Source: a virus. Taken from it: a stretch of 64,000 bases of DNA. Below, piece after piece: positions 6,482 to 55,640 of the stretch. The notes beneath the pieces are model-generated. The model was not told the origin of the DNA. It was given only the letters and a program-made list of their open reading frames with translations, and ran no database searches. Position 1 is the first letter of the stretch; each line of letters begins with the position of its first letter. The DNA lies in the IMG/VR virus record IMGVR_UViG_3300031772_000016, positions 1-64,000 of that record. One strand, written 5' to 3'. The position numbers and the translations under genes were made by a program.

Positions 6482-6483
6482 CT

Positions 6484-6822: not shown

Positions 6823-6834
6823 GGAGTTTGTAAA

Positions 6835-7119: not shown

Positions 7120-7140
7120 TAGCATAGTAATAGATCATAA

Positions 7141-7153
7141 TACTCTTCTAATA
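7141..7153 (+). promoter_or_regulatory. phage promoter-like motif TACTCTTCTAATA
   Basis: Copy of the TAnTCTnnTAATA family, 48 nt before the start at 7201; TATTATCC lies about 30 nt downstream. Confidence 0.6.
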
Positions 7154-7200
7154 AATAAATTAAGTCGAATCACTGTCCGAGATATTATCCGGGGTACACT

Positions 7201-10705: not shown

Positions 10706-11668
10706 ATGTCAAGAGAACGCCTTACGACACGGGTAGCAGGAGAGACAAAGGCAATCGATAATGATGTCTTTGCTCAGAACAATCCAGAGCATACCTCCAA
10801 TGATCCTAAGATCGGTGAGTATGCGATTAACTCGACATTTGGTGAAGATGTGAATACGGCCAATCCGGCAGCCGACGATCACAAGCGTGAAAGTACTGGT
10901 CACGCTCCTCTCATCGACAAGCACGCTGCTGCTGAAGCTGTGGCGTCCGCCAGAGTGCTCGAAGCGAAGGCAGTAAAGTGTATCATCGCTGCTCAGCGTA
11001 TCCTCCCGGGTGCTGCTGAGGAGATGATTGAGAAGCAGGCTGCGATTTTCATGCATCTGCCTGAGGAAGGTCTGAACGCTACTCTGTCGAACCAGGAATC
11101 CCTCGCAAAGATGATCTCCAAGCAGGCTTCTGAGACTTCTGAAGAGGCTAAAGCTGAGGGTGAAACTGTGAAGCAGGAAGAAGCTGAGAAGAAGTGCAAT
11201 AAGGAAGATGAGCAGAAGAAGGAAGCCGCTAAGAAGGTTATGGATGATAAGAAGAAGAAGCTTGAGGATCTGAAAAAGGAAGCAGCTGACCTCGAGACTG
11301 AGCTTACCGCTGGTAAGAAAGATGAGAAGGTAGTAGAAGAAGAGGACAAGACTGCTGCTGTAAAGAAAGATGAGAAGGTAGTAGAAGAAGAGGACAAGAC
11401 TGCTGCCGTTAAGAAAGATGAGAAGGTAGTAGAAGAAGAGGATAAGACAGCTGCCGTTAAGAAAGATGAGAAGGTAGAAGAAGAGAAGGAAGAGGTTGAG
11501 GCTTCTGACGGTACGCTCCTCGACCAGATCTTTGGTGAAGTGACTGCTTCCGAAAACAAGAAGGGCGCTGCAAAGCTCTCTGGTATGGTGAAGAAGCAGG
11601 CTTCTGAGCAGGTCAGTGATCTGCAGGGTCTGTGGGCGACAGATCCTGACGTGAGCAACATGTTCTAA
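10706..11668 (+). CDS. scaffold-like head protein with 16-residue tandem repeats
   Basis: 320 residues with ribosome site GAGGAGG. The middle is a long lysine/glutamate coiled coil (KKLEDLKKEAADLETELTAG). It is followed by three full copies and one partial copy of KKDEKVVEEEDKTAAV (nt 11315-11476, 48-nt period). The C-terminus (LDQIFGEV ... LQGLWATDPDVSNMF) is globular. Such charged helical proteins directly upstream of capsid genes commonly serve as scaffolds or core proteins; I infer this from composition and position only. Confidence 0.55.
   Translation: MSRERLTTRVAGETKAIDNDVFAQNNPEHTSNDPKIGEYAINSTFGEDVNTANPAADDHKRESTGHAPLIDKHAAAEAVASARVLEAKAVKCIIAAQRILPGAAEEMIEKQAAIFMHLPEEGLNATLSNQESLAKMISKQASETSEEAKAEGETVKQEEAEKKCNKEDEQKKEAAKKVMDDKKKKLEDLKKEAADLETELTAGKKDEKVVEEEDKTAAVKKDEKVVEEEDKTAAVKKDEKVVEEEDKTAAVKKDEKVEEEKEEVEASDGTLLDQIFGEVTASENKKGAAKLSGMVKKQASEQVSDLQGLWATDPDVSNMF
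11315..11476 (+). repeat. 48-bp in-frame tandem repeat
   Basis: Units at 11315-11362, 11363-11410, 11411-11458 and a partial 18-nt unit to 11476. They are almost identical at the nucleotide level, so the expansion is recent. The protein unit is 16 residues, KKDEKVVEEEDKTAAV. Confidence 0.9.
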
Positions 11669-12394: not shown

Positions 12395-14321
12395 ATGGAA
12401 GGTCAGATTAGCAATGAACTGAAACAGCAGATCATTGGTGAGTACATCAAGACTGCTGCTGGCAGGCAGAAGCTTGCCGCGTCCATTAACTAAGCTGGAT
12501 GGTGGACGTAAAATCCGGTAAATTGCTGGAAAATGCACTATAGGAGTTGATTGGCAATGAGTAGCTGGGCATCTAAATACATACAATGCGTTAAGTGCGG
12601 AACGGTGGACGTCCCGCATGAGGCTAAGGGTATGTGTACAAGGTGCTATGATAATTTACGGTATTGTAATGAAGTCAAAGCTGAAAGAAACTACACCTGT
12701 ACTAACTGTGGTAAGGTATTTTCTATTTCTCGTAGAGGAAAAAGGGCATATACTTTTTGTTCTCGATCTTGTAAGACCATTTTTCAAAGAGATGGTTTTA
12801 AAAGTAAAGAGGAAATTAGTGATGCTGTCCTTAACGTAATAAAATCAGAAAAAAGGTATCTTACCACAGAAGACGTTAGAAAGAAAGTAGGGGTTACTTC
12901 TCGAACATTGGGTAGATTTGGTATATCTATTGTTGCTCTTAATGAGCAACTTGGATACAAATCTAAAAAAGTTTTCGAGGATCGTGTAGCTGTAATACTT
13001 TCTAAGGTGTATCCTGATTTGGTACGGGAGAAAAAATTTCCTGGATGTTTATCTCCTCGTGGTTTTTCTCTACGCTTTGATTTTTACAGTGAGGCTCAAA
13101 AAATTCTGATTGAAGCTGATGGAATCCATCATTATTGTGGCCCCTATCATTCTGAAGAGATAGTTGTCAGAGATGGGATAAAAAATATGTGGGCTTCTGA
13201 TAATGGATTTCCTCTAATTAGAATACCGTATAAGAGATCTTTTTCAGATGATTATGTTTTAAGTTATCTCAACAAATGCCAATCTGATTCTATAGTGGAC
13301 AATCAGCAGCCTAGCCTTGAGGGAAACCTCTCGGAAGGTTCAACGACTGAGGAAAGTCTAAACTCTTCTGTAGAAGAGCATGACGGTAACTCCTACTGCA
13401 GTCTGGCGACGGACTGCGGCATGCCGGAAACCAACGAACTTGTTGGTTGTGATACAGTCTGAACTCGTGGGTAACTACGAGAGGTAAGTTGAAAGACTTA
13501 TCCGCTTCTGATAAGAAGTAGTAACAAATTGGATCCAGCCTCTACGCTCGCGTAGAGATTACACGTCCGTCGCACGTAAGGCGTTCCTCGTAGAGCAGCT
13601 GCCCGATGGCGCACTGCCCATCTACGATAAGGACCCCAACGTGACTGCGTTCGTGGTTGGCGAAGAGGGTGAGAACATCCTCGCGATCACCAAGCCCCGC
13701 CGTGTGATTTTCCCCCTGTTCGAGATCGCCTCGAACCCGGAGATCCCTCTCACACAGGTCAAAGAGCGTCGGTTCGACTTGATCGAGCGTGCTCAGGACC
13801 TTGCGAAGGCTCAGATCCAGGCTGCTGAGGATGCCCGTGCATTTGACGTCATGGACGCAGTTTCCCAGAATGGTTTCGACAACCTGGGTTCTGCTTACGT
13901 GAACGCTCAGGTGAACGCGATTGCTCCTCTCACTCCTCCGAACCTGATCGATGCGTTTGCTCGTATCGAGACACACGATCTGAGAGTGGCTAGAGTGTTC
14001 ATGAATGCCCTTGATTTTGCTGACCTCAGAAAATGGGGACGGGACGTTTTTGACATCGAGAGCCAGGCTCAGATTCTCAAGACTGGTTTGATGGGCTCCG
14101 TGTGGGGCGCTCAGATCATCGTCTCGAGAAAGGTCACTCCGGGCTATGCGTACGTTTGCGCAGAGCCTGAGTTCTTCGGCAGGATTCCGGTGAGGACCGA
14201 ACTAACAGTACTCTCAGCAGACGATCCCAAGGCAAGAAGGATCGGATTTAGCGTCTTTGAAAATCTCGGGATCGGTTGCCACAATCCGTTGGCGATCACC
14301 AGAGTTAAGATTGCTCGCTAA
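12395..14321 (+). CDS. major capsid protein, interrupted by a group I intron (join 12395-12486, 13532-14321)
   Basis: Exon 1 (start with AGGAGG about 7 nt upstream) encodes MEGQISNELKQQIIGEYIKT to AAS. Exon 2 continues IQPLRSRRDYTSVARKAF and LPDGALPIYDKDPNVTAFVV. Joining 92 + 790 nt gives 293 residues in one frame, with an ATG codon formed across the junction. Without splicing, exon 1 stops at 12493 and yields 32 residues. The protein resembles HK97-fold major capsid proteins of large phages (IFPLFEIASNPEIPLTQVKE, PGYAYVCAEPEFFGRIPVRT). It is followed by a strong terminator and then by a LAGLIDADG-methyltransferase gene, so this essential gene carries one homing element inside and another immediately behind it. 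Confidence 0.85.
12487..13531 (+). ncRNA. group I self-splicing intron
   Basis: The boundaries come from base pairing. Exon end GTCCAT (12481-12486) pairs with the guide GTGGAC (12502-12507), giving P1 with the expected U-G pair at the 5' splice site. GGAT (12497-12500) pairs with ATCC of exon 2 (13533-13536) as P10. The last intron base is G (13531). A core resembling P7 is visible: GACT (13345-13348, inside GTTCAACGACTGA) pairs with AGTC (13456-13459, inside GATACAGTC). The endonuclease frame runs through the core. Length 1045 nt. Subgroup not assigned. Confidence 0.9.
12557..13462 (+). CDS. intron-encoded homing endonuclease, Vsr/EDxHD-like
   Basis: 301 residues from ATG 12557 (GGAG 10 nt upstream; a TTG at 12551 is also possible). 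The N-terminus has two zinc-finger-like units (CVKCGTVDVPHEAKGMCTRC and CTNCGKVFSISRRGKRAYTF-CSRSC) that probably bind DNA. An HTH-like linker follows (LTTEDVRKKVGVTSRTLGRF). The nuclease domain has EDRVAVILSKVYPDLV, LRFDFYS and ILIEADGIHHY, the acidic and histidine spacing of the Vsr-like EDxHD homing enzymes known from phage introns. The last ~55 codons are also the 3' catalytic core of the intron and probably not needed for nuclease activity. Codon use is visibly more AT-rich than the capsid exons. Confidence 0.8.
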   Translation: MSSWASKYIQCVKCGTVDVPHEAKGMCTRCYDNLRYCNEVKAERNYTCTNCGKVFSISRRGKRAYTFCSRSCKTIFQRDGFKSKEEISDAVLNVIKSEKRYLTTEDVRKKVGVTSRTLGRFGISIVALNEQLGYKSKKVFEDRVAVILSKVYPDLVREKKFPGCLSPRGFSLRFDFYSEAQKILIEADGIHHYCGPYHSEEIVVRDGIKNMWASDNGFPLIRIPYKRSFSDDYVLSYLNKCQSDSIVDNQQPSLEGNLSEGSTTEESLNSSVEEHDGNSYCSLATDCGMPETNELVGCDTV

Positions 14322-20092: not shown

Positions 20093-21019
20093 ATGTCAAG
20101 TAATGAGGATTTGTCAGGAAAAGTTTTTGGTGATATGACTGTTATTGGGTATGTTGGAAAAGATAAGAACCAAGCTAGGGTGTGGAAGTGTAAATGCTCT
20201 TGTGGTAAATTTTTTGAAGCTATAACGAGCAAAATAAAGAGAGGGATTGTAAAAGGGTGTGGGTGTCATACAGGGAGCCCCGCTGATCTTGTTGGAAAAA
20301 GATTTGGAAAACAGCTTGTTATAAGCTTGAGTCCTAGGAAAAATCATAAAGTTATATTGTGGGAGTGCTTGTGCGATTGTGGTAAAAAAACATACAGAAC
20401 AACAGGTAAACTTCTTTCCGGTGCTACTATTTCTTGTGGGTGTTCAAGAGAAGGCCCTAGGCAGGATCTTACAGGAAGAGTTTTTGGTAGATTAACAGTG
20501 GTTTCTTTAAAAGGCAAAAACAAGCAAGGTAATTATGTGTGGCAGTGCGTATGCTCTTGCGGAAATACTCATGTGGTAAGCGCTTGCCAATTACTTGCAA
20601 AAAACAGAGCAACAAAGTCGTGCGGGTGTTATTATAGAGATTCCAGAACTAGATTACGGCTCCCTCCTGGAGAGTCTTCTTTTAACTCTATATACATAAT
20701 ATACAGATCTCACGCTTTTAAAAGTGGTAGGGTGTTTTCTTTGACTAAGGATTTTTTTAGGGATATCACAAAAAAATCTTGTTTTTACTGTGGCTCAGAG
20801 CCTGCTCAAAGCAGAAAGATGAAAAAGACTAGCATACCTTATGTTTATAACGGACTCGATAGAGTGGATAACACTAAAGGATACTCTATCGATAATGTAG
20901 TGCCTTGTTGTAAAACGTGCAATTTTATGAAAAAGAATTTGCCAAAAGCTGATTTTATAGAGCATGTTCACAAAATATCAAATCATTTAAAAGGGGGTGT
21001 TTGTGCTAGATTTTCTTAG
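20093..21019 (+). CDS. free-standing HNH homing endonuclease with three zinc-ribbon repeats
   Basis: 308 residues, strong ribosome site CGGAGG. Three repeats of ~60 residues each begin D-L-x-G-x-x-F-G (DLSGKVFGDMTVI, DLVGKRFGKQLVI, DLTGRVFGRLTVV) and contain W-x-C-x-C-x-C-G and a closing CGC. This DNA-binding repeat is often found with phage HNH enzymes. The C-terminal HNH nuclease has CFYCG near 229, NGLDRVDNTKGYSIDNVVPC and CCKTCNFMKK. It is expected to cut a specific phage site to spread its own gene. Strongly AT-rich compared with neighbours, and preceded by a folded leader and a possible own promoter, which are typical signs of a mobile insertion. Confidence 0.85.
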   Translation: MSSNEDLSGKVFGDMTVIGYVGKDKNQARVWKCKCSCGKFFEAITSKIKRGIVKGCGCHTGSPADLVGKRFGKQLVISLSPRKNHKVILWECLCDCGKKTYRTTGKLLSGATISCGCSREGPRQDLTGRVFGRLTVVSLKGKNKQGNYVWQCVCSCGNTHVVSACQLLAKNRATKSCGCYYRDSRTRLRLPPGESSFNSIYIIYRSHAFKSGRVFSLTKDFFRDITKKSCFYCGSEPAQSRKMKKTSIPYVYNGLDRVDNTKGYSIDNVVPCCKTCNFMKKNLPKADFIEHVHKISNHLKGGVCARFS

Positions 21020-26910: not shown

Positions 26911-27087
26911 ATGGAACGAGTAAATTTCCACCTCACAGACGGAGAGCGTAAAGGTCTGGAGATGCTCTCAGAGATCACTGGGGTGAAGAAAGCGGAGCTG
27001 ATCCGTAGGGCTATCGATGAGTATATCAAGAGGAAGAAGTGGGAAGGTGTCACGGGACTCTCAGAACTGAAGGAGATATTCGCATGA
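26911..27087 (+). CDS. ribbon-helix-helix (CopG-like) protein
   Basis: 58 residues: MERVNFHLTDGERKGLEMLS followed by ITGVKKAELIRRAIDEYIKR, the strand-helix-helix pattern of CopG/Arc DNA-binding proteins. The stop overlaps the next start (ATGA at 27084-27087), so it is coupled to the glycosyltransferase. Probably regulates its own operon. Confidence 0.75.
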   Translation: MERVNFHLTDGERKGLEMLSEITGVKKAELIRRAIDEYIKRKKWEGVTGLSELKEIFA

Positions 27088-30000
27088 GCAAGAAGTTTTT
27101 GGGCCTGAATATCATCGTAGGTAAGGGTGAGGAGAAAGAGCTGGAACGCTGTTTAAAGAGCTGTACTCAGGGAGAGCTCTTCGATGAGATGGTAGTGACC
27201 CAGACATTTGAGGATGAAAACGTACGTGCAGTCATAGAGAAGTACGGGGCTCGACGGGAGTTCTTTGCTTGGGTGAAGGATTTCAGCCTTGCCCGTAACA
27301 AATCTTTCAGCCATAGTACCTCTGAGATGATAATTTGGCTGGACAGTGATGACGTGATCAAACCAGACGATTTCAAGAAGCTCCAGGAGCTGAAACCGAA
27401 GATCAAAGATTTTGACATCGTACTCATCGACTATGTATACAATCACGATGAGAGAGATAATGCTACTTTGGTGCTCCCCAGAGAGCGTATCGTAAGAAAC
27501 TGTGATTACATCAAGTGGCATGATCCCATCCATGAGTATCTGAACATGGATGTCCCTCCGAACAAGATCCTCAAGACAAAAATTAAAATCGATCATTACC
27601 GGGTAAAAAATTATGATCCTAGTAGAAACCTGGACGCTCTGAGACTGGCGTATGGAGAGGGAAAATGCTCCCCTCGCCTGAAATTCTATTTCGGAAAAGA
27701 GCTCTCGGACTGTGGGTACTGGGAAGAGGCTATCAAAGTCCTCGAACCCTACATAGAGGAGGGTGTGGATTTCCGGGATAACATGACTGTAGCGTGTATC
27801 CGATTGAGCAAGTACTACTACGAAAACAAGAACTACGCAGCGGCAAAAACATATGCTATGAAGGGCATCCGGTTCAATAGCATATACGCTGAAAACTACG
27901 TGACTGTAGCTACCATATTCGAGATAGAGAATGACCTCGACTCTGCTGCGAGCTATTACAAGGAAGCTCTCACGAAGAAACTCGACGCGGGTATGTCACA
28001 GATCGTGGATTTTTATGGGTTCATACCAGCAGCGAAGTTGGCTATCCTGTATTTCGCTAAGAAGGAGTATGAGGAGTGCCTGAAGTATTGCGACATAGCT
28101 CTGCAGCATAAGTCAGATAACGTCCAGATAGCAGAGCTGAAGAAGACTGTGAGTATCGAAACAGAGCGCATGAAGAAGGGTAGTACGATACGTGAGGAAG
28201 ATGAGGCCAGATTGCGTAAGATGCTCGAGGAGCTCGATTTCAAGATAGACATACAGAAGAATAACCATGAGTATGCTGAGATCAGACTGTCTCGTATCAG
28301 AAAGCTCGAGGTAGTGTGGTTGGTGCCTACACTGGACCTCGACAACCCATCTATCCGTATCCGTAGGTATAACGTATCGAAGAAGATGGAGGAGCTCAAG
28401 GTACCCAGCAGGATCATCACAAATTACTATGGTAGGAACGTATTTGACCTCAGAAATGAGATAGGTCCTGCTACTGTGGTAGTGTTCACGCAGTACAGCA
28501 GTTTTGACCTGGAACTCATGCGTCACCTCAAGCCTCTGGGTATCAAGACGGTGTTTGATCACTGTGAGGCTATATTCGGGTACCCGTTTGAGCATGAGTG
28601 TATGATAGAGGCAGACCTGGTGGCGTGTTGCTCTACAAAGCTGGAGGAGCTGACCAATAAAAATGGTGTAGCTCGTACCGCGGTGTTGAAAGATGCGGTG
28701 GAAGAGCGTGTACCGTCTACAGAGAGAGTGTATACGGATAGGTATCTTAAACCTAAAGCTGGTTATTTTGGCATGGGAGGCAATAGCTTCCTTATTTCTG
28801 AGTGGTTGAAAGATACCATAGAATCTGCTGGGTATGATGTTGTTTTGAGCACTGAATGGAGTAGTGCCACCCATAAATGGTCCATAGATACGTGGCCTGA
28901 CGTGATGAATGAGTGTGATGTCATACTATGCCCTCAGCGAGTAGACGTGCAGCCTGCTAAGAGTAGCGTGAAAGCGACCACAGCGATGGCGTTAGGGATG
29001 CCTGTCCTCGCATCTCCCCTACAGGCCTACAAAGAGGTTATACAGCCTGGTGTGAATGGGTACATCTGTGACACCAAGGATGATTGGTATTCGGCTCTGG
29101 TGCAATTGAAAGACTCCAATCTGAGGAAATCGGTAGGTACCGCGGCTAAAAAGGCTGTGGATGGATACTCACTGGAGAATATCACTAAAGGGTGGATAGA
29201 GACTCTGGGTCATCTCATCAATGAGAGATTGAAATTCCCGGAGCCAGAGGTAGTGGAAAAGGTGGCTGAGCGTAACATCGTAGATATCATCATCGCCAAC
29301 TACGGTAATGTAGAGTATCTGAAGATGTGCATGAGCTCTATTTTCATGAATACGCTGTATCCGTATCACGTCATCATATCTGACGCGGGTAGTGATGAGA
29401 AGACGTGGGAGTATCTGAAAACACTCAAAGGGGTGACGATACTCGGTGAGCCTGGTAAGAGAGTGTCTTTTTCGGAAGCGTGTAATGCAGGTATACAGGC
29501 GTCCAGGACAAAGTTCTTTGTTATCCTGAACTCTGACGTGATAGTATCCAAGTGCTGGCTCACGAGTCTCGTGGACAAGATGGAGCATACGGATAGGCTC
29601 GCAGCGTGTGGAGTGCTGAGTAATTGTGATCGCGGCTGGCTTTTTAGTGCACCTGGTAAACCAGAGTACCCTATGCGTTTAGAGAAGTCTGGGGTAGATC
29701 TCGTACCTGGTATGAAGATAGGTACTATACAGCCTCATGTGGAAGAGCTGTATGATTTCATGAAGAAATCTAATGAGACCTACAAAGGTAAGTACATCAA
29801 GCAGGATTGGGTGGCGGCGTATGCTACTATATTCGCTCGATGCGCGATCGATGAAGTGGGGTTATTCGATACCCAGTACAAAAATGGGTGTGAGGACTGG
29901 GATCTCTGCCAGCGTATCTCTCGATATGGGTACGCGATAGGACAGGCTATAGATTCGTTTGTGTATCATTTTGGCGGGGTGACTAGAGGTAGCTATGAGG

Positions 30001-32384
30001 AAGAGAACAAAGAATCCTATAAAAAAGAGGATATGGAGAATCACATCAAGATGCGCCGTAAGTGGGATAAAGAGCGCGTAGTGATTTATACGGGTCCTGC
30101 TTGGGAAAGTTGGAACAAGCAGAAAGTAGACGAGGGCATGGCGGGGTCGGAGACGTGGGCGGCATATCTGGCACGGGAGTTTGTGAAGAAAGGGTATCGT
30201 ACCACGATCTACAATGATCTACTGGTAGAGGACAAGAGTCAGGCAGTGTTGGACCCGGTACAGGATGACTCAGGTAAATCGGTAGGTGATGTGTTTTATC
30301 GTCACTACACGAATTTGAATGAGGATGTGAAATACGATGTGGTGGATTATTTCATATCGTCACGTACACTGGATCCTTTTCAGGGTAATGTACACAGTCT
30401 GAAGAATTATGCGATGATCCATGATGTGTTTTTAAATCCTAACCCTGATTTTGATATCATGCCATGGAGGATACACGGGTATGCGTATCTATCGGAGTGG
30501 CACAAGGATTTTCTTAAGAGCCACCACAGGATGCCTGAGGATAAAATGTTCCTCACGGCAAATGGCGTAGACCACACTCTGTATGCTGACGTGGATACCT
30601 ACGAGAAGAAAAACCAGACTGTGTATAGTTCGAGTTTGGATAGAGGGTTGTATCAGCTGCTGTTGATGCTACCAGAGATCAGGAAATCTGTGCCTGATTT
30701 CAAGGTGATAGTGTGTTATGGTCTGCTCAACTGGGAAAAAAGTATAAAGGCTCACAATGATGTCCAGTCCATGGAGTTACTCAATAAGATAAAGAGTCTG
30801 ATGGAACAACCGGGGGTAGAGTATCGTGGTCGTGTAGACAAGAAGACGTTGTCTATTTTACAGAAGGAATCCAAGGTGTTCTTGTTTTCGAGCTGGTTCG
30901 CGGAAACTTTTTGCTGTCATCCAGATAATGAAATATTCACTGAAAAAGGACCTAAGAGGATTGTGTCTTTGAACATAGTTGATAGGGTACTTACTCATAA
31001 CAATAGGTTTAGGAACATAACTAAGATACTATCAAGACCGTATTCCGGGGATCTTGTTAAGTTTAATGTTCAGAACCATAAAGCAGGCACGGGTATGTAC
31101 ACTCCAGAGCATCCAGTGCTAGTCTTGAGAGGCGGCAATGTTTCAAAACTGAGAAGTAATAGGAGCTTTATTAAGTTAGGTAAAAAACCAGACTATTCTC
31201 CTAAAAGCATAGCAAAATACGATATAGATCCAGAGTGGGTTGAAGCAGGGGATGTTTTAGCGGGAGATTACGTATGCATGCCGTACTGTGATGACCGCAG
31301 CCCAGATGACTGGTTTTATCCGTTGGAGGATATGAAACGCGTTAATAGGAATTACAAAATAGTAGGAGAGCATATAATAAGTAGGGAGTCAAAAATTTTC
31401 AAGAGATTGCCAGCTAAAATAAAGATGGACTTCGATTTTGCGAGATTTCTTGGTTTCTATTTCTCTGAGGGATGTTTTAGTGGAGGGTGCGTAAAATTTT
31501 CGTTTAACACCAAAGAGACAGAATACATTAATTTTGTTTCTTCCTATGCTGATAGAGTTTTTGGAGTTAAACCTAAAATAAAAAATAGAGGAAATTGGGT
31601 TGAGATATGGTGCTACATGAATTCTATGGGTATACTTCTTAAAGAGCTGTGTGGTCATGAGGCTTCTCAAAAGAAGGTTCCCTATTTCATGTATCGGCAG
31701 GATAAGAGTTTTGTCAGAGAGTTTGTACGCGCTGTATTTGAGGGGGATGGCCATGAGAACAAGAATGAGTTTACAATGGTGCTAGCAACAAAGAAGGGAA
31801 TGGTAGGCCTTAAGATACTGGCAGCCAGCATAGGCCTTCACCCTAGCTACAGGAATTCTCCTCGTTTCGGAAGAGATTACTATACTATGGGTATCAGCAA
31901 GAAGTTATGGAGTGATCTTTTTGTGGGAAAAAAAGACTACGGCCCGAAAGGTACTTATAGGGTCTATTTTGAGAGGAATTCGAAAATTTTCTACAAGATC
32001 AAAAGTATCGATAAAGTTCCTTATGTTGGACCCGTGTATAATTTAGAGGTGGAAGAAGATCAGTCGTATACATCGGACTTTATCGCTGTCCATAATTGCT
32101 GTACTGCGGTTGAGAACGGGTTGTCAAAAAACCCTATACTCTCTACAGACTTCGCAGGGCTGAAAACCACTGTAGGATCTGCGGGGATACTGTTGCCGTA
32201 TGAGGGCCTGTCTCGGGACGCGGACTATCCTGATACGTATAAATTTCGTTTCGTAGAGGAGTCCATACGCCTACTCAAGGATGACACCTATCGTGCTGAG
32301 TGGGCGGATAAAGCCTACCAGAAGATGCAGGCCTATAGGTGGGATAAGGTCGCAGACGGGTGGATAGAGAAGTTCAAGAAGTAG
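27084..32384 (+). CDS. giant multi-domain glycosyltransferase carrying an intein
   Basis: 1766 residues as translated, about 1371 after intein removal. Order: GT2-type domain (LNIIVGKGEEKELERCLKSC; IIWLDSDD with the metal-binding DSD); TPR-like helices (about 200-380); GT4-type domain ending MALGMPVLASPLQAYKEVIQ; second GT2-type domain (VDIIIANYGNVEYLKMCMSS; LNSDV; GCEDWDLCQRI); and a last GT4-type domain with FAETF / CCTAVENG split by the intein at 30912-32096. It probably builds a glycan on phage DNA bases, virion proteins or a host envelope component; the acceptor cannot be read. Start at 27084 is chosen from ATGA overlap with the RHH gene. Followed by a terminator. Confidence 0.85.
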   Translation: MSKKFLGLNIIVGKGEEKELERCLKSCTQGELFDEMVVTQTFEDENVRAVIEKYGARREFFAWVKDFSLARNKSFSHSTSEMIIWLDSDDVIKPDDFKKLQELKPKIKDFDIVLIDYVYNHDERDNATLVLPRERIVRNCDYIKWHDPIHEYLNMDVPPNKILKTKIKIDHYRVKNYDPSRNLDALRLAYGEGKCSPRLKFYFGKELSDCGYWEEAIKVLEPYIEEGVDFRDNMTVACIRLSKYYYENKNYAAAKTYAMKGIRFNSIYAENYVTVATIFEIENDLDSAASYYKEALTKKLDAGMSQIVDFYGFIPAAKLAILYFAKKEYEECLKYCDIALQHKSDNVQIAELKKTVSIETERMKKGSTIREEDEARLRKMLEELDFKIDIQKNNHEYAEIRLSRIRKLEVVWLVPTLDLDNPSIRIRRYNVSKKMEELKVPSRIITNYYGRNVFDLRNEIGPATVVVFTQYSSFDLELMRHLKPLGIKTVFDHCEAIFGYPFEHECMIEADLVACCSTKLEELTNKNGVARTAVLKDAVEERVPSTERVYTDRYLKPKAGYFGMGGNSFLISEWLKDTIESAGYDVVLSTEWSSATHKWSIDTWPDVMNECDVILCPQRVDVQPAKSSVKATTAMALGMPVLASPLQAYKEVIQPGVNGYICDTKDDWYSALVQLKDSNLRKSVGTAAKKAVDGYSLENITKGWIETLGHLINERLKFPEPEVVEKVAERNIVDIIIANYGNVEYLKMCMSSIFMNTLYPYHVIISDAGSDEKTWEYLKTLKGVTILGEPGKRVSFSEACNAGIQASRTKFFVILNSDVIVSKCWLTSLVDKMEHTDRLAACGVLSNCDRGWLFSAPGKPEYPMRLEKSGVDLVPGMKIGTIQPHVEELYDFMKKSNETYKGKYIKQDWVAAYATIFARCAIDEVGLFDTQYKNGCEDWDLCQRISRYGYAIGQAIDSFVYHFGGVTRGSYEEENKESYKKEDMENHIKMRRKWDKERVVIYTGPAWESWNKQKVDEGMAGSETWAAYLAREFVKKGYRTTIYNDLLVEDKSQAVLDPVQDDSGKSVGDVFYRHYTNLNEDVKYDVVDYFISSRTLDPFQGNVHSLKNYAMIHDVFLNPNPDFDIMPWRIHGYAYLSEWHKDFLKSHHRMPEDKMFLTANGVDHTLYADVDTYEKKNQTVYSSSLDRGLYQLLLMLPEIRKSVPDFKVIVCYGLLNWEKSIKAHNDVQSMELLNKIKSLMEQPGVEYRGRVDKKTLSILQKESKVFLFSSWFAETFCCHPDNEIFTEKGPKRIVSLNIVDRVLTHNNRFRNITKILSRPYSGDLVKFNVQNHKAGTGMYTPEHPVLVLRGGNVSKLRSNRSFIKLGKKPDYSPKSIAKYDIDPEWVEAGDVLAGDYVCMPYCDDRSPDDWFYPLEDMKRVNRNYKIVGEHIISRESKIFKRLPAKIKMDFDFARFLGFYFSEGCFSGGCVKFSFNTKETEYINFVSSYADRVFGVKPKIKNRGNWVEIWCYMNSMGILLKELCGHEASQKKVPYFMYRQDKSFVREFVRAVFEGDGHENKNEFTMVLATKKGMVGLKILAASIGLHPSYRNSPRFGRDYYTMGISKKLWSDLFVGKKDYGPKGTYRVYFERNSKIFYKIKSIDKVPYVGPVYNLEVEEDQSYTSDFIAVHNCCTAVENGLSKNPILSTDFAGLKTTVGSAGILLPYEGLSRDADYPDTYKFRFVEESIRLLKDDTYRAEWADKAYQKMQAYRWDKVADGWIEKFKK
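30912..32096 (+). mobile_element. intein with LAGLIDADG endonuclease in the glycosyltransferase
   Basis: 395 residues. N-terminal splicing block CCHPDNEIFTEKGPKRIVSL (first Cys is residue 1). Block B: YTPEHPVLV (penultimate-type His). LAGLIDADG motifs: LGFYFSEGCFSGG and FVRAVFEGDGHE. C-terminal blocks: VYNLEVEEDQSYTSDFIAVH-N, followed by Cys of the C-extein. Excision restores ETF-CCTAVENG, the conserved GT4 loop. Codons are more AT-rich than the exteins. Confidence 0.9.
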
Positions 32385-35675: not shown

Positions 35676-36572
35676 ATGGCAGTAGTTTTTTATCCTGGAC
35701 AGACCCTAGGACAGGATGACCTCAAGATATCCATCCGTGATAGCGGCGGGCAGTACGTGGACCCGTTCTACATTCGGTACTCCCTGTTCGATAACACCAC
35801 AGGCGTCGAGGTGCTCATCGGAGCCCCTGACAGAATCCCCGCTACCACAGGCACTGGGATGTTCTATGTGAACGCCACTCTACCTCTGGACGCAAATATC
35901 GGTGACTGGGTGGTCCGGTGGAATTTCAGGGAGACCGCTATCTCCCCCCTGGTACAGGTAGCACAGGAGTTCGGGCTGGTGAAGATAGAGGTGATCAAGA
36001 GCATCACGGGCAACGACACGGGTGATTTACTTTTGAGAAGATTGAGGATATTGTTAAGAGATTTTCATCCAGATCGCAATTATAGATTTCGCCCCCCGTC
36101 AAGTGAGAAATTTCTGCAGGCTCAGGCACAAGTATTCGGGTACCTGTGGGAGGATGAAGAGCTCTACGAGTTCGTATTGATGGCCATAGATGATTTTAAT
36201 ACAGCGCCTCCTGTCACTGGTATAGACATAAACAACATGCCTGACAGATGGAGAACCACGCTGCTTATGAGGGCTGCGGGCATGGCGTGCGGTGCTATGA
36301 CCGTTAACCAAATTGCCGATGAATTCAACTACTCAATCTCTGGAGTCTCTCTCAGCATTGAGCGCTCGTCCAAGTATGAGTCTATGAAAAGGAACTTCTA
36401 CGAAGAAGCAGATAAGTCCCGGGATCTCGCTAAGCGCTCGATAAAGATTATAAAAGGGCTGAAACAAGCTCGTTATGGTGTGGGCATCAGTTCGGCATTA
36501 GGACCTTATTCTAAACCTGGCACTCAGTCAAGAAGAAATTTCGCTGGTGGTGGAGGTGGTGGTTGGTCATAA
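35676..36572 (+). CDS. virion structural protein with AT-rich patch
   Basis: 298 residues. Beta-rich N-terminal domain (VVFYPGQTLGQDDLKISIRD, YVDPFYIRYSLFDNTTGVEV). A conserved-looking joint DFHPDRNYRFRPPSSEKFLQ near 129-148 leads into a helical domain, and the tail is glycine-rich (GGGGGGWS). This layout recurs in uncharacterised structural proteins of large myoviruses, perhaps neck or baseplate. Nt ~36025-36110 (around the DFHPDRNYRFRPP part) switch abruptly to AT-rich codons, unlike flanking codons. Directly followed by the homing fusion gene, suggesting sequence exchange near its target. Confidence 0.55.
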   Translation: MAVVFYPGQTLGQDDLKISIRDSGGQYVDPFYIRYSLFDNTTGVEVLIGAPDRIPATTGTGMFYVNATLPLDANIGDWVVRWNFRETAISPLVQVAQEFGLVKIEVIKSITGNDTGDLLLRRLRILLRDFHPDRNYRFRPPSSEKFLQAQAQVFGYLWEDEELYEFVLMAIDDFNTAPPVTGIDINNMPDRWRTTLLMRAAGMACGAMTVNQIADEFNYSISGVSLSIERSSKYESMKRNFYEEADKSRDLAKRSIKIIKGLKQARYGVGISSALGPYSKPGTQSRRNFAGGGGGGWS

Positions 36573-36580
36573 GGACCCAG

Positions 36581-36609
36581 TTGACTTTAGTCCGGTATTG
36601 TGGTATATT
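36581..36609 (+). promoter_or_regulatory. sigma70-like promoter for the second LAGLIDADG-methyltransferase gene
   Basis: TTGACT (36581-36586), 17-nt spacer, TATATT (36604-36609); predicted start near 36616, 14 nt before the ATG with GGAGG between. Same layout as before the paralogue at 14522. Confidence 0.7.
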
Positions 36610-36629
36610 CAGTAGTACTGGAGGCCACA

Positions 36630-38906
36630 ATGACCGGACCAAAAAGTGGAATTACTGCGGACAGAAAAGACACCGTCAAGTTGGGTTTCATTGTAGAGCA
36701 CTACAGCTCTATGTCTCGTGATGAGCTTGCCTCTCACTTGAAAGAGACTCCCCGTTGGATAAAGCGACAAATAAGGCTTCTTAAAGACTCCGGAAGAATC
36801 CAGCCTAAGCGATTAGTCCCCGAGCGTATACTTTCGGAATCAGATTGGACAGATGAAATAAAGCATAAGGCGATCTCTCTCAGGAGAGATCGCCTTATGT
36901 CGACTGGTGCTATTTGTGAGGTGCTTGAAAAAGAGTTTTCTTTTGCCGTACCAGACTATACGTTAGAGTTCTGGTTCAGGAAATTTGGGTGTGAGTCCAG
37001 AAGTAAGCTGGATTGGCTGGAAGAGTTTTTTCCTCCTAATAAAATGATAGAGTTCATAGACAGCGACTACAGAGTAAAGGATATCAGTGATATCATTCTA
37101 AAGACTCATGGAGTATATATATCTGATGATATCGTACAAGAATATCTGCAATCGAAAGGAATAGAGAGTCAGCGAAACAGGCAGGTCAGGTTAGTGCGTG
37201 ACAAAGCTAGTGAATTTTCTAAAGAGTGGTTGAGTGATCAGGTACAGGGTCATGCAGGGTTGTCCGGGTTGACCGAAAAAATGGGTGTGTCTAAAACAGT
37301 GGTGATGAATAGACTGAGAGAAGAGGGACTCAGTCTGATTAAGCATAGAAAAATATGGTCTGATAATTTGGAGACTCTCAGCGATCTTATGGCGGCACGA
37401 CCCCCTATTACAAAAAAGATATCTGAAGAAGATAGACACCAGATGCTTTTGGGATGGTTGCTTGGAGACGGCCATTTAGATTTTAACGGTAGATTAGTTG
37501 TTAATCACTCGCTTGCACAGATAAGCTATTTGTTTGTCAAACATCAGGTGCTGAGGGGCAGCGTGTCTAATATAGTTACTGTACCGTCATCACATTTTTC
37601 GGGAGAGGGAACTCATTTTGGAGGTAAAGAGCAGATAGGGATATCGTGCCCTGGGTTTGAGTCGTATGTTCAATACCTGAACGAGGACGGGTCAAAAAAT
37701 TTTGATAAAATAGTGCGTGAACTTAACGACCTTGGGTGGGCATGCTATTTTATGGATGATGGAAGCTATTTTTTTGATAAGCAAATAATGGCTATAAATG
37801 GTAGATTAGCTGCTGAGTTTGAAAATAGATACCAATTTGGCAGCATAGTGCATGAGCATAATTTGGAGGTGTTCGGTATAAAGCCAGAGTATCTAATACC
37901 TTGTATGTTGTATAAAACACCCGTGGAAAGCAGAAATCTCGGCAATTATTGGGAAACAATATTTCCCGAACTGTTCAACGTGTCTATAAAAGATGATCTG
38001 GATCTTAGCTTCGTGAACAGGCATGTAGCAGAAAATGTGCCTGGCATAATGACCCAGGTTGTGGAGTACTATCACGGTAGAGGGTTTCCTGTGTACCACA
38101 TCGCGGATGTGTATCTTACAAAGGAGTGGGAAAAGCTACAAAAGTTCAAAGCTGATCTGTTGTGGAAAAACGACAATACAATGCGCTATCTGGCTGTGGG
38201 TAATGCTCTATACAAGCATTTCATGCCGCACATGTCTGAGGCGAAGTACAGAAACGTATCCCCAAAGCAAACATTCGATAGCTTTTCTACATTCTTGACC
38301 GTTCTGGAGTATACCCTTAAAACCAAGAAATCCATACTGCCTGATTTTGTGCACGACAACCTCGTGCATTTTAATGGGGGTGTGGTCGGTTTCCCTTGTT
38401 CGGTAGCCAAGGCTGTTACAGATCGGTATTGTCCTGTAGGAGGGTCTGTTGTAGACCCTTGCGCTGGGTGGGGTGGTCGTCTGCTGGGTGTGTCGTCTGC
38501 AGGTAGGTTTTACTACGGATTCGAGCCGTGGGACAAGACCTACGATGGTTTGACTCGTATCATAGCACACTTTGGTCTGAACTCTTCTGTGCAGAAGTCT
38601 GAGTTTGATAGTACCAAAGCACCCCTTCTGTGTGATTTTATCCTCACGTCCCCGCCTTATGTGGATCTGGAGATATACGGTAGACCCTTTAGCAAAAGTG
38701 ACTGGCTGTCACTAATTAAACGCATATTCAGTTATGCAGAGAAGAGCCTTACTCCTGGCGGGTACTTAATACTTAACCTGCCCGGGTATCTTAAAACATT
38801 GTTGCCTCAAACTCTCCTCAAGGAAGCAGCGCCTGTATATTGGAATACATCCTCCAAAGTAAGAACCCTCGATAAAGCGGAATGCCTGTACATCTGGCAC
38901 AGGTAA
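36630..38906 (+). CDS. second fusion of HTH modules, LAGLIDADG endonuclease and S-P-P-Y DNA methyltransferase
   Basis: 758 residues from ATG 36630 (GGAGG 5 nt upstream). N-terminal HTH-like segments (MSRDELASHLKETPRWIKRQ near 29-48; LTEKMGVSKTVVMNRLREEG near 212-231). LAGLIDADG motifs: RHQMLLGWLLGDGHLDF near 268-284 and LGWACYFMDDGSYFF near 368-382. The methyltransferase follows a lead-in similar to its paralogue (YYHGRGFPVYHI; GFPCSVAKAVTDRYC), then VVDPCAGWGGRLL near 607-619 and TSPPYVDLEIYGR with SPPY at 674-677. Unlike the 14522 protein it lacks the C-terminal HNH-associated repeat. Own sigma70-like promoter; isolated behind a virion gene. Expected to act on phage DNA both as nuclease and methylase; the target is unknown. 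Confidence 0.85.
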   Translation: MTGPKSGITADRKDTVKLGFIVEHYSSMSRDELASHLKETPRWIKRQIRLLKDSGRIQPKRLVPERILSESDWTDEIKHKAISLRRDRLMSTGAICEVLEKEFSFAVPDYTLEFWFRKFGCESRSKLDWLEEFFPPNKMIEFIDSDYRVKDISDIILKTHGVYISDDIVQEYLQSKGIESQRNRQVRLVRDKASEFSKEWLSDQVQGHAGLSGLTEKMGVSKTVVMNRLREEGLSLIKHRKIWSDNLETLSDLMAARPPITKKISEEDRHQMLLGWLLGDGHLDFNGRLVVNHSLAQISYLFVKHQVLRGSVSNIVTVPSSHFSGEGTHFGGKEQIGISCPGFESYVQYLNEDGSKNFDKIVRELNDLGWACYFMDDGSYFFDKQIMAINGRLAAEFENRYQFGSIVHEHNLEVFGIKPEYLIPCMLYKTPVESRNLGNYWETIFPELFNVSIKDDLDLSFVNRHVAENVPGIMTQVVEYYHGRGFPVYHIADVYLTKEWEKLQKFKADLLWKNDNTMRYLAVGNALYKHFMPHMSEAKYRNVSPKQTFDSFSTFLTVLEYTLKTKKSILPDFVHDNLVHFNGGVVGFPCSVAKAVTDRYCPVGGSVVDPCAGWGGRLLGVSSAGRFYYGFEPWDKTYDGLTRIIAHFGLNSSVQKSEFDSTKAPLLCDFILTSPPYVDLEIYGRPFSKSDWLSLIKRIFSYAEKSLTPGGYLILNLPGYLKTLLPQTLLKEAAPVYWNTSSKVRTLDKAECLYIWHR

Positions 38907-38935: not shown

Positions 38936-38954
38936 CTCACAAACAGATTGTGAG
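38936..38954 (+). promoter_or_regulatory. inverted repeat over the ribosome site
   Basis: CTCACAA / TTGTGAG with a 5-nt centre (ACAGA), directly before the ATG at 38960 and covering its GTGAGG ribosome site. Could be an operator or an mRNA hairpin limiting translation. Confidence 0.4.
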
Positions 38955-38959
38955 GCTAT

Positions 38960-39253
38960 ATGTCCATAGAAATCCAGTATTTCGGTATCACCGGCATGAT
39001 AGGTCCTGGTAGTAATGATTTTCTACCTCTCCTCACCGGCCCTTCCACTGGCGTGGCTGGCGGGTATGACGTGGCTGTGGACCCCATAGACGGCCCTGCT
39101 CAGCGCTACGGTATAGATTTTGGTGTGACCTCATACGGGGGCGCTGCTGCGGTGGCACTAAATATAACGGGGTCCGACCTCAAGGACGTCCAGAATAACT
39201 ACGGTCACGGGGTCACAGGGGTTTTGAATCTGCGTGTAGTCTACAACTACTGA
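38960..39253 (+). CDS. small G-x-T-G-rich virion-type protein
   Basis: 97 residues, beta-rich with glycine turns (MSIEIQYFGITGMIGPGSND, TGPSTGVAGGYDVAVDPIDG, GHGVTGVLNLRVVYNY). The motif YDVAVDPIDG...YGIDFGV parallels YDVAVNSINGSSFLYGTDYT in the beta-helix protein at 39846, so the two share a domain. Likely part of the receptor-binding or fibre complex encoded by this operon. Confidence 0.6.
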   Translation: MSIEIQYFGITGMIGPGSNDFLPLLTGPSTGVAGGYDVAVDPIDGPAQRYGIDFGVTSYGGAAAVALNITGSDLKDVQNNYGHGVTGVLNLRVVYNY

Positions 39254-48547: not shown

Positions 48548-49378
48548 ATGACTAAAAAGCGATGGACTGAGTCAGAAGAGTCTGAAGCTATTGCTTTACT
48601 GAAAATAGGGAAAACGTATAAAGAGATTAGTGATAGTACAGGCCGTTCTATGAGTAGCCTACAAAAGAAAAATATGAGAGAATGGAAAATAGATATAAGT
48701 CAGTTTAATAGTAGTAAGCTATCTGTGAGCGTTAGAAAATCTGCATACAAAATAAGTGAGTGGCAGAAAGCTCATGGCAGGTGGGCAGGAGAAAAGAATC
48801 CCAACTATGGAGCAAAAATAGTAAAAACAGGAGTAGATAATCCAATATATGTTTGGAGGAAAGAGAACCCAGGGTATCAAGATGGAGAAAAGAACCCGTC
48901 TTTTGGTAGGGTGCCCTCTCCGGAAGAGATCGAGCTAAAAACAAGAAAAATAAAAGAGTTTTCAGCTAGTAGGATTGGAAAGACGCTGGAAGAGTCTTAT
49001 GGGAAAGAAATAGCGATAAAGATTAAACGAGCAGTAAGCCTGAGTTGCATTAAAAGAATATCTGAACAAAAATCTAGTGGTACGTGGCCAGAGCTGGAAA
49101 TGATAAAATTTTTAGATTCTATGGGAATAACATATGTGTTTCAGCACCCTATGGAGTACTATTGCGTAGATTTTTATGTCCCAGATAAAAATCTAGTTAT
49201 ACAGGTAGATGGGTGCTATTGGCACGGGTGCCCTAAACATTCTACTGAGTTAGACGATAGACAGAAAAACAGGATAAGGCTAGACCATTCTTGTGACTCC
49301 TATTTGAAAAATAGAGGCTATAGAGTCGCTCGTATATGGGAGTGTGATATTAAAAAAACAACTATGAATCTGTTGTGA
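48548..49378 (+). CDS. free-standing Vsr-like homing endonuclease with NUMOD3-type motifs
   Basis: 276 residues, ribosome site GGGAGG. N-terminal HTH (TESEESEAIALLKIGKTYKE, ISDSTGRSMSSLQKK). Two G-E-K-N-P-x-(Y/F)-G units (GEKNPNYGAK and GEKNPSFGRV), the NUMOD3 type of DNA-binding motif found with homing nucleases. The nuclease domain CVDFYVPDKNLVIQVDGCYW-HGCPKH ... DSYLKNRGYRVARIWECDIK is close to the Vsr/DUF559-like fold, with D-x-Y and V-D-G-x-x-W-H. AT-rich compared with neighbours. It sits between the coiled-coil gene and the actin-like gene. Confidence 0.8.
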   Translation: MTKKRWTESEESEAIALLKIGKTYKEISDSTGRSMSSLQKKNMREWKIDISQFNSSKLSVSVRKSAYKISEWQKAHGRWAGEKNPNYGAKIVKTGVDNPIYVWRKENPGYQDGEKNPSFGRVPSPEEIELKTRKIKEFSASRIGKTLEESYGKEIAIKIKRAVSLSCIKRISEQKSSGTWPELEMIKFLDSMGITYVFQHPMEYYCVDFYVPDKNLVIQVDGCYWHGCPKHSTELDDRQKNRIRLDHSCDSYLKNRGYRVARIWECDIKKTTMNLL

Positions 49379-52670: not shown

Positions 52671-55640
52671 ATGGCTATAGGACCTCTGGAAAGTTTTGTT
52701 TTCCCTGGTGTACTGGTTAAGACTATCAATGAGGCTGCCGGTGCTTCTACTGCGGGTGATATACGTTTCCCAGCTTTTGTGGGCGTATCTGCTGAAGAGG
52801 TCCGCGTGGGTGACTTTGAGATGGTTCGTGGCTCTTCTGCGATCGCTGACAACATCATTCTCGACGAGCAGGTTACTGGGACATCTGTTGCTACTCCTTC
52901 CGGATATACTCCTTCCGGATATACTCCGGGATGGATAGGTGGCGCACAGGGTGCTGTAAAAGATTTCCGCGTAGAAAATTTCCCCATCGTCCTTGGCGAC
53001 GGCACAGGTAGAGTGGCGACCCTGCCCTCGAGCGTCATCGTCACGGTCAATGGAGAGAACGTGGCGGTCAATGCGGTGAACGGGCTCACGGGTCAGGTCA
53101 CTCTGGTCGTGGTTCCTAAGGACACTGATGATGTCCGTTGCAACTACTATTTCAAGCGTCGTGACACGTACATCGAGAACGAGATTGACTCCAACCAGGC
53201 TGACAGTTCAAACCGCATATTCAAGGTCCATAGCGCACGTATCGTGAAGGGTGACAACAGTGGTAGCTCTGCTACTGATGCAGACATCAACGCTACCGTG
53301 ACGATCCTTTACAACCCGACTCCTCTTTCGAATCCGGGAGATGAGTTTGAGCGTACGGTGAAAGTCATTGAGGCGAAGGTTAATGGTGCTATTGTTACGA
53401 TATCTGCTCTGGATGGTGCGAATGGTCGTGTGACTTTGGCTGTCGCTCCTACGAGTGGTGATGTTGTTACGTTCACCTACTTCGCGAACCTGTGGCAGGA
53501 CACGTATGACATTCTTCCTGCACCGACGGTGAATCGTGTGGTCAAGGTCGGTCTCAGCCAGGACACTTCTGATTTCTCGGTCGGTAACGACTGCGTACTC
53601 TCTGGTGATAACAGACTGCACTGGGGCAACTCTTACCAGGTCACCAACGGTGTGTATACACTGGCGACCACGCCGATCGTGGACAACATTGTGGCATCGG
53701 TGACGGATACCAGGGTCTACGGTAGAGTAGCTGCACCGGCGGTGGTTGGTTCTTTGGACCCTGTCGAGGGTAACTTGCCGTTCAATGACGGTACTAACAA
53801 AGTGTTTACGTTACCGACCATGCCGGTGGATGGTAGCGGTAATGGAGATGCGACAGAAGATACATCTCTTATTACTGCCTATTTTGGAGCTACGTGGGCC
53901 GCTGCTTATGCTGCTAGTGCTAAGCAGGTCCTTTCGATAGACGGTAATCAGATCACGCTGGCATTGGCCCCGGCTAATACAGAGCATGTGTATATCACGT
54001 ACTACGAGTGTGATATCGTAGATGATAGTTGGCTTTTGACTGTGCGTGTGCCTGGTATCTCTGGTGTAGGAAAGTACACACTGGCATCTCTGCTCCATGG
54101 TAACGCCCTTGGAGTGGTGCAATCTGGAGGCACTGCTACTTTTGCTTACGCTGGTTCCGGTACTCCCAACGCAGAGGTTAATCCTCTGATTGCTTCTACA
54201 GAGCGTGTACGTTGCACATTTGGTGCTCTTGGTGGGTTCACGGTTAGCTCTATGGTGGGTACGACACTTACTCCTTGGGTACATAATGGTCGTACGGGTT
54301 CGGTGATGACCTACAACCAGAACAAGGGTACGATCGGTCAGACCTACGTTGATCCTACCACTGGTTTCAGAGTGGCTTTTGCTTCTAGCCCTGTACCTAG
54401 CAACGGCACTTATGTTGAGTTCGATATCGGTGATCCTACTGTGTCTGGTATCACAAATAGAGCTTACATCACTGCAGACACAAACATCGTTCGAGTCATC
54501 CCGGGTATTAACCTGACGATCTCTACGACAGTGGGTAGTGATCCAGGTAACACGGCGACTATCGCTACGTACAACAAGAGTGGTAATGAGCCCAATATAG
54601 GTGACATGTACTATGTCACGTTCGATAAGGCTAAGACAGACTACACGACTCGGTTCCTCACGAGCATGCGTGATGTGGTCAAGTACTTTGGTCCGATCGA
54701 TATCAACAACAAGCTCACTATCGCCGCCAACCTGGCGTTCATCAACGGAGCCAGGGCAGTGGCCATGAAGCAGATCCAGAGAGTGTCTGGTGGTACGGAT
54801 GCGAGTGTACAGGATTACATTGATGGTATCGATGCGTTCAACGAGCCTATGCCGAACGGTCTTCGTCCTTCAATGATACAGCCGCTCTCGACAGACCCTC
54901 AGGTACTGAGTTACCTGAAGACTTCGAATGCGATTCAGTCGAGTATCCGTTACAGGAACGAGCGTACCAGTGCAGTAGGCTTCCCAGTGGGTACCACGTC
55001 TGATGCGGTTATCCAGCAGTGCAAAAATCTGTCTTCTGAGAAGATTACTGCTGTGTATCCTGACGGTGCTGTTATAGGCATCGTGGATGCGTACGGTAAT
55101 GAGGTTGAGTATATCGTAGATGGTTCTTTGATTGCAGCTGCGGTAGCTGGTCGTGATATATCGCCGGTGAATGACATTGCTACACCTCTTACGAACGCTA
55201 CGGTTTCTGGTTTCAAGCGTTTGTACCGGAGATTGGACAATGTTACGGCTTCGTTGGTGGCGAATTCTGGTTGTACGGTTCTTGAGGAGCAGACTCCAGT
55301 CATCAGGATTCTTATGTATCTGACCACAGATATGTCCACGTCTCTCACTCGTGACCCTCGTATTGTTGAGGTGAAGCATTCGATCCAGCAGGGGATCCGG
55401 ACTGCTCTCCAGCAGTATATCGGTGTAAAGAATCTGCCGAAGATGCAGACACAGATCAGGGATACCGTAGGTTCGTACTTCAAGCAGTTGAAGCAGAATG
55501 AGATCATTGTGGACTTTACGGGTATCCGTGTGTCTCAGAATACGAGTGATCCGAGCACGGTGGATGTGGAAGCATACTATAGCCCAGTGTTCCCTTTGAA
55601 CTGGATTATGGTTACCCTTAACCTGAGACAGAGTCTGTAA
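52671..55640 (+). CDS. tail sheath protein
   Basis: 989 residues, large for a sheath. The conserved N-terminal arm (FVFPGVLVKTINEAAGASTA) and C-terminal domain (GFKRLYRRLDNVTASLVANS; RDPRIVEVKHSIQQGIRTAL; DVEAYYSPVFPLNWIMVTLN) fit the sheath core, with AYYSPVFPLNWI-type ending typical of the inner strand that links subunits. About 500 residues of beta-rich inserted domains (repeated NGxxVxxxAxNGxxGxVTLxV units near 120-260) decorate the outside. A short duplication (PSGYTPSGYTPG) is seen near 78-89. Contracts to drive the tube through the host envelope. Followed closely by tail genes. Confidence 0.9.
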   Translation: MAIGPLESFVFPGVLVKTINEAAGASTAGDIRFPAFVGVSAEEVRVGDFEMVRGSSAIADNIILDEQVTGTSVATPSGYTPSGYTPGWIGGAQGAVKDFRVENFPIVLGDGTGRVATLPSSVIVTVNGENVAVNAVNGLTGQVTLVVVPKDTDDVRCNYYFKRRDTYIENEIDSNQADSSNRIFKVHSARIVKGDNSGSSATDADINATVTILYNPTPLSNPGDEFERTVKVIEAKVNGAIVTISALDGANGRVTLAVAPTSGDVVTFTYFANLWQDTYDILPAPTVNRVVKVGLSQDTSDFSVGNDCVLSGDNRLHWGNSYQVTNGVYTLATTPIVDNIVASVTDTRVYGRVAAPAVVGSLDPVEGNLPFNDGTNKVFTLPTMPVDGSGNGDATEDTSLITAYFGATWAAAYAASAKQVLSIDGNQITLALAPANTEHVYITYYECDIVDDSWLLTVRVPGISGVGKYTLASLLHGNALGVVQSGGTATFAYAGSGTPNAEVNPLIASTERVRCTFGALGGFTVSSMVGTTLTPWVHNGRTGSVMTYNQNKGTIGQTYVDPTTGFRVAFASSPVPSNGTYVEFDIGDPTVSGITNRAYITADTNIVRVIPGINLTISTTVGSDPGNTATIATYNKSGNEPNIGDMYYVTFDKAKTDYTTRFLTSMRDVVKYFGPIDINNKLTIAANLAFINGARAVAMKQIQRVSGGTDASVQDYIDGIDAFNEPMPNGLRPSMIQPLSTDPQVLSYLKTSNAIQSSIRYRNERTSAVGFPVGTTSDAVIQQCKNLSSEKITAVYPDGAVIGIVDAYGNEVEYIVDGSLIAAAVAGRDISPVNDIATPLTNATVSGFKRLYRRLDNVTASLVANSGCTVLEEQTPVIRILMYLTTDMSTSLTRDPRIVEVKHSIQQGIRTALQQYIGVKNLPKMQTQIRDTVGSYFKQLKQNEIIVDFTGIRVSQNTSDPSTVDVEAYYSPVFPLNWIMVTLNLRQSL

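Follow-up and report, generated by a model that had tools for sequence, protein, structure and literature searches.

A LAGLIDADG endonuclease-methyltransferase fusion gene at a fixed slot of a virus genome: a probable homing endonuclease with a built-in modification domain

Introduction

A gene that joins a LAGLIDADG endonuclease to a methyltransferase in one polypeptide, and that is located between two genes of a virion region, raises the question of what a cutting and a modifying domain do together in a single protein. Target mutation is a known way for homing genes to avoid self-cleavage. For F-CphI of cyanophage S-PM2 an intron is needed to the same end (PMC6083498). Free-standing homing genes of phages are found between conserved genes, one of which they cut when a genome lacks the homing gene (PMC6083498; PMC2988022); T4 segD, for example, is located between genes 23 and 24 (PMC2988022).

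The window, that is, the whole stretch of DNA analysed here, comprises bases 1-64000 of a virus record of 74.8 kb. It contains two such fusion genes, named W1 and W2 in the order of their positions, and W2 is the subject of this study. An earlier note on this DNA, made from the sequence alone, had taken the two copies as evidence for a family with exchangeable specificity modules and against a chance fusion. Domain assignments, relatives of both genes and the occupancy of their genomic slots were analysed here by profile, alignment and structure-based searches.

Results

Position and domain organization of W2

The features of the W2 locus are as follows.

35676..36572, + strand: gene A, bordering the W2 slot on the left, with a weak match to a tail protein
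36581..36609, + strand: predicted sigma70-like promoter of W2's own, TTGACT-17-TATATT, between gene A and W2, sequence match only
36630..38906, + strand: W2, gene for a 758-aa LAGLIDADG endonuclease-methyltransferase fusion, with a frame open from GTG 36600
36630..36821, + strand: N-terminal 'TADRK' domain, aa 1-64, from profile search
36822..37349, + strand: further helix-turn-helix-like units, aa 65-240, from helices in the AlphaFold2 model and weak HTH Pfam matches
37410..37973, + strand: I-SceI-like LAGLIDADG endonuclease domain, from Pfam, profile and AlphaFold2 fold match
38031..38400, + strand: helical lead-in of the methyltransferase module, holding GFP at 38082-38090
38400..38903, + strand: amino-methyltransferase core, motif order X-I-IV
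about 38445-38489, + strand: methyltransferase motif I, VVDPCAGWGGRLLG
38646-38660, + strand: methyltransferase motif IV, TSPPY
38960..39253, + strand: gene B, bordering the W2 slot on the right

The uninterrupted frame spans 36600-38906. The ATG at 36630 (MTGPKSGITADRK) is the likely start codon, because the orthologues begin at the same position, in agreement with the start given in the earlier note, and GGAGG is located ahead of it at 36620-36624. Promoter-like matches with at least 10/12 consensus positions and a 17-bp spacer were also found upstream of the orthologues in L293, L294 and L297 (sequence match only). From the N-terminus the protein consists of HTH-like units, the LAGLIDADG domain, the helical lead-in with G-F-P and the methyltransferase; the motifs LGWLLGDGH, YFMDDGSYF, DPCAGWGGRLL and SPPY all occur in the order read from the sequence before. 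The AlphaFold2 model of the whole protein has a mean pLDDT of 86.6. The TADRK domain is a probable target-recognition module, and the helical lead-in occurs in free-standing phage methyltransferases as well.

W2 is located between genes A and B, which are both intact, and is not inside a split gene or a self-splicing element; an origin as an intein or group I intron was thus ruled out, and an Rfam search gave no match at W2. An inverted repeat, CTCACAA-ACAGA-TTGTGAG, is present at 38936-38954 between W2 and gene B.

The endonuclease domain

W2 matched LAGLIDADG_2 of Pfam above the cut-off (1.7e-6), with the catalytic acids D280 (LLGDG) and D377 (MDDG) in the numbering of the 758-aa protein. 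A profile of the family built from 19 members reached I-SceI with 1e-26 over the whole core and aligned both catalytic acids; with a profile of W2-type sequences alone I-SceI was not reached below E 0.1. Since the methyltransferase dominated the PDB search with the whole model, the LAGLIDADG domain was folded separately (AlphaFold2, pLDDT 86.1). The best PDB matches of this model were all LAGLIDADG endonucleases, and I-SceI was matched with Z 12.7 and rmsd 3.4 over 163 aligned residues. In the predicted model W2 thus has both the fold and the two helices that each end in a catalytic acid. I-SceI is alike in the endonuclease domain, but it is intron-encoded and has neither the HTH array nor a methyltransferase.

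The methyltransferase domain

The Pfam match of W2 to N6_N4_Mtase (3.8e-4) was below the cut-off, and the profile of the 19 members matched the DNA amino-methyltransferases 2zie (3e-11), 8s9n, which is a DNA cytosine-N4 methyltransferase (2e-6), and M.PvuII (0.002). The motifs of a DNA amino-methyltransferase, DxxxGxG for motif I and [DNS]PP[YF] for motif IV, are present in W2. Motifs X, I and IV with SPPY are common to W2 and to M.PvuII and other DNA cytosine-N4 and N6 amino-methyltransferases (2zie, 8s9n, 1boo), whereas the order X-I-IV in W2 is permuted relative to the beta class of M.PvuII, and no separate recognition domain is evident after motif IV. In the fold search the methyltransferase of the W2 model was nearest to the tRNA methyltransferases Trm11/TrmN. 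Because the fold alone favours these, the assignment of DNA as substrate is based on the sequence profiles and on the fusion to a DNA endonuclease, from which we infer that the domain would act on DNA.

Relationship between W2 and W1

W1 is located downstream of the major capsid gene.

12395..12486, + strand: major capsid gene exon 1, near W1, joining with exon 2
13532..14321, + strand: major capsid gene exon 2, immediately upstream of W1, spliced product 293 aa
14522..17134, + strand: W1, the genome's first LAGLIDADG-methyltransferase fusion, in the slot that follows the major capsid gene

In BLASTP the two fusion proteins, W2 and W1, shared 23% identity over 550 aa (E 3e-23) in an alignment that was collinear across both domains, so that by sequence the two are homologous far beyond chance. 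The pairwise alignment domain by domain that had been suggested gave global identities of 28% for the nuclease, 30% for the methylase core and 20% for the lead-in. As to the proposed lead-in pattern G-F-P-x-x-x-I, G-F-P is shared by both proteins and the final I is absent from W1; across 39 fusions F and P were found in 39/39 and G in 33/39. The C-terminal 'HNH-associated repeat', said to be present in W1 and lacking in W2, was detected in W1 only below threshold (HNH_repeat, E 0.13; 0.033 in its close relative L009). A recent duplication was ruled out, since the two methyltransferases belong to different clades and no slot is held in common; judged by their sequences, they represent distinct lineages, each with a slot of its own.

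The capsid intron between the two exons (12487-13531) is likely of group I, with a match to RF00028 at E 0.0022, below the gathering score, and holds a homing endonuclease ORF (12551-13462, phrog_559), an element separate from W2. The contig L009, the closest relative of W1, begins at the boundary between this intron and exon 2, perhaps an assembly break caused by presence and absence of the intron in the population. The genome is rich in homing-type endonuclease genes, among them an HNH/endonuclease VII-like gene at 20093-21019 (phrog_374, phrog_1035) and a Vsr-like gene at 48548-49375 (PF03852). The window also contains a 1781-aa protein with several glycosyltransferase-family matches (27039-32384) and near-identical direct repeats of 128 bp (~94%) at 11309-11484, inside the ORF 10706-11668.

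A family of fusions with conserved catalytic residues

With W2 as a single-sequence query no relatives were found in IMG/VR, and alignment queries were required to find them. The profile and alignment scans of IMG/VR recovered about 39 non-redundant fused ORFs, among the best 80 of 286 relatives for the fusion query and the best 80 of at least 593 for the methylase query. A search of phage GenBank returned one fused relative only, the uncultured 485-kb phage LR745208, and a scan of genome contigs returned 16 relatives, one of which (L297) was looked at further and has the whole fusion. The two copies therefore do define a family, as the earlier note had proposed, and its members occupy different intergenic sites in many phages: the capsid slot, the slot between genes A and B, and positions after tail-sheath and Gp23-type capsid genes. 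That W2 is a chance fusion or an assembly artefact of a single phage is extremely improbable, given that the family is found on dozens of independent contigs and at two slots, with six orthologues of the W2 type when W2 is counted.

The group after tail-sheath genes consists of HTH/zinc-finger-methylase proteins of about 735 aa (L045, L046, L047, L051, L052, L055) encoded directly downstream of homologues of the window's tail-sheath gene (52671-55640); their nuclease type is less certain, with a match to a homing-endonuclease PHROG in L051 only.

Homologues elsewhere with intact motifs were thus found, and not the decay that would have spoken against the family. Both LAGLIDADG catalytic acids are kept in all fused proteins, and the Asp of methyltransferase motif I, the GxG, the Arg and the SPP of motif IV are invariant in 39/39 fusions. 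Because the catalytic residues are kept down to 20-25% identity, selection has acted on both domains and so on both activities. It is therefore very improbable that the endonuclease is dead or a mere DNA-binding platform that targets a regulatory methylation mark: a single additional LAGLIDADG repeat of L003 has degenerated (LLGN...DRG), as such a reading would have it, but both acids are invariant in W2, its orthologues and all other fused proteins, and presence and absence at a fixed slot fits mobility.

In the methyltransferase tree, a quick tree with several long branches, the LAGLIDADG fusions are scattered over several clades, with W1 and W2 apart, and strongly supported branches force at least four changes. 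The methyltransferase-family module is common as a free-standing phage enzyme.

Occupancy of the slot between genes A and B

The W2 slot, between the virion-region genes A and B, is optional. It is empty in L286, where the two genes are 28 bp apart, and in L282, with a gene A 81% identical, it holds a different ORF. Orthologues of W2 with 45-51% identity adjoin gene A, gene B or both in L287/L292, L288/L294, L293, L295 and L297, which brings the fusions at this slot to six including W2. In L283, L284, L285, L289 and L290 the slot holds an unrelated, opposite-strand Vsr-like nuclease with a Mom-family domain, detected by Pfam in the last four (6e-8, 5.7e-8, 1.2e-10 and 6e-10) and in L283 by a purpose-built profile.

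The N-terminal domain of W2 recurs at the C-terminus of four of these five Vsr-Mom proteins. The TADRK profile matches elements of the A-B slot and no element of the capsid slot, with one weak match elsewhere (L091, 8e-5), and the profile of the W1-type N-terminus matches capsid-slot elements. We read these N-terminal domains as candidates for the part that defines the target. The idea that specificity modules are exchangeable is supported in this way, by the domain shared with Vsr-Mom proteins of the same slot and not by the repeat reported missing from W2.

In L290, L293 (2538-4917) and L297 (2317-4144) further nuclease-like sequence splits gene A around codons 218-235, and gene A therefore looks like a homing target. 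The L297 contig was binned as a Candidatus Altiarchaeales genome and has the region gene A - W2-type gene - gene B, so it would belong either to an archaeal virus or to a phage whose contig was assigned to the wrong bin.

Occupancy of the capsid slot

In the examined loci of the first scan a homologue of the window's major capsid gene directly precedes the fusion. LAGLIDADG-methyltransferase fusions were found at 27 of 57 non-redundant capsid loci, and at 17 of 44 when an unbiased capsid-protein query was used (non-redundant loci followed by 3 kb or more of sequence, among the best 80 of 513 capsid-gene relatives per scan). The 44 slots hold a LAGLIDADG-methylase (17), a LAGLIDADG-Mom gene (1), a LAGLIDADG gene together with a PAPS-reductase gene (5), a LAGLIDADG gene alone (7) or none of these (14). 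The capsid proteins of L167, L168, L181 and L169 are 96-100% identical, yet the four slots are in four states, namely two fusion lineages, a LAGLIDADG-only gene with a PAPS reductase gene, and none; because phages with near-identical capsid proteins differ in the occupant, turnover at this slot is rapid. No such gene follows the capsid gene in L181 and L182, and W1 is in this respect an optional intergenic gene like W2.

Additional occupants of the slot were observed. In L169 (6698-10362), L183 (2666-6198) and L211 (7089-10321) a PAPS reductase/DUF3440 gene comes after the LAGLIDADG-only gene, which may reflect DNA modification by sulfur chemistry that is coupled to homing; the L169 nuclease also carries a fused ParB_N domain. 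L172 has a TnpB/OrfB-like gene (6915-8027, Cas12f1-like TNB) between the capsid gene and the LAGLIDADG-Mom gene, and L211, with a capsid protein 97% identical, has a 642-aa ORF with RRXRR and DUF7487 (5158-7083). With respect to the target of W1, an analysis of synonymous conservation across 67 capsid-gene sequences gave no window above the permutation 95% level, and no target site was found.

Repeated pairing of nucleases with modification domains

Four pairings were found: LAGLIDADG with methylase, LAGLIDADG with Mom (in L172 by Pfam, 2e-14 and 7.6e-8, and in L190 by a purpose-built profile), Vsr-like nuclease with Mom, and Vsr with methylase (L006, downstream of a Gp23-type capsid gene). 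Because of these four combinations and the scattered placement in the methyltransferase tree, the pairing has arisen or been reshuffled more than once. Domains of the Mom family (PF25680) occur as fusions with homing-type nucleases, either in the same slots, where Mom apparently takes the place of the methyltransferase, or in equivalent ones. No description of a LAGLIDADG-methylase or a Mom-homing nuclease fusion was found in the openly licensed papers searched, which is weak evidence of absence.

The methyltransferase might instead be a useful passenger, captured for example against host restriction and unneeded for self-protection. Many phages encode the same module as a gene of its own, it resembles type II and MADS methylases by PADLOC profiles, and LAGLIDADG-only genes occupy the same slot; because seven of the 44 capsid slots have LAGLIDADG genes without a recognised modification gene, modification is not obligatory there. 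However, the methyltransferase is fused and not merely adjacent, the different DNA-modifying domain Mom substitutes for it, and a modification-type gene was present in 23 of 30 LAGLIDADG-occupied capsid slots versus 0 of 14 others, a strong association (p 1e-6) that is partly trivial, since the fusions themselves count. We therefore regard the passenger role as rather unlikely.

Discussion

The reading that we consider probable is that W2 is a free-standing homing endonuclease with a built-in modification domain that marks the target of its carrier. The N-terminal domains would direct W2 to a single conserved site, the junction of genes A and B or nearby, and the LAGLIDADG domain would cut this site in co-infecting phage genomes without the gene. 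Repair from the carrier would then copy the W2 gene into the cut genome. As the carrier's target is intact beside the gene, it would need protection; the fused amino-methyltransferase would mark it, guided directly by the same binding modules, so that it is spared from cutting. The sister element W1 would act likewise at the major capsid gene.

Homing is well supported by the comparison of loci, since empty or otherwise occupied slots in close relatives are the signature of free-standing homing endonucleases. We infer that W2 would cut, what it would cut and that modification would block the cutting; a self-protecting role of the modification domain is suggested by the repeated pairing with two unrelated modification chemistries. 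The fusion genes resemble the seg and mob genes of T4 and F-CphI in being optional between conserved genes and absent from relatives, in having a promoter-like site of their own and in occupying hot spots such as the capsid gene; those nucleases are described as GIY-YIG, HNH or Endo VII without a fused methylase, whereas here a modification domain is built in.

A comparison with type IIG enzymes leads to a further alternative, a single-chain weapon against co-infecting phages or the host genome that acts at many short sites, with homing secondary. Nuclease, methyltransferase and a presumably shared DNA-recognition part in one chain, which cuts and methylates, are common to W2 and type IIG enzymes, and in phage PhiPA3 an intron homing endonuclease serves interference competition (PMC11620839). 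However, slot-specific insertion and the N-terminal domains indicate one long target per element, the gene is located in a fixed homing slot, and type II restriction enzymes fall mainly into three catalytic classes, PD-(D/E)XK, HNH and GIY-YIG (PMC4081073), to which LAGLIDADG does not belong. W2 would work like a type IIG enzyme without being one, since its nuclease falls outside these classes, and we consider the weapon role improbable. Both this role and that of a passenger can coexist with homing.

The homing endonuclease with its own modifier may also be one case of a wider class of modification-coupled homing endonucleases, in which unrelated nuclease folds are each joined to a DNA modifier that immunises the uninterrupted target of the carrier; we hold the chances for and against this class to be evenly balanced. 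If it is real, the class would span methyltransferase, Mom and possibly sulfur chemistry, and such genes would bridge homing endonucleases and restriction-modification systems. The fused modifier would be a further answer to self-cleavage besides target mutation and the intron, and it would allow an element of this kind to attack a gene that is both essential and fully conserved, for example the major capsid gene. Moreover, the slot-specific N-terminal domains would constitute a natural catalogue of long-site DNA-binding modules.
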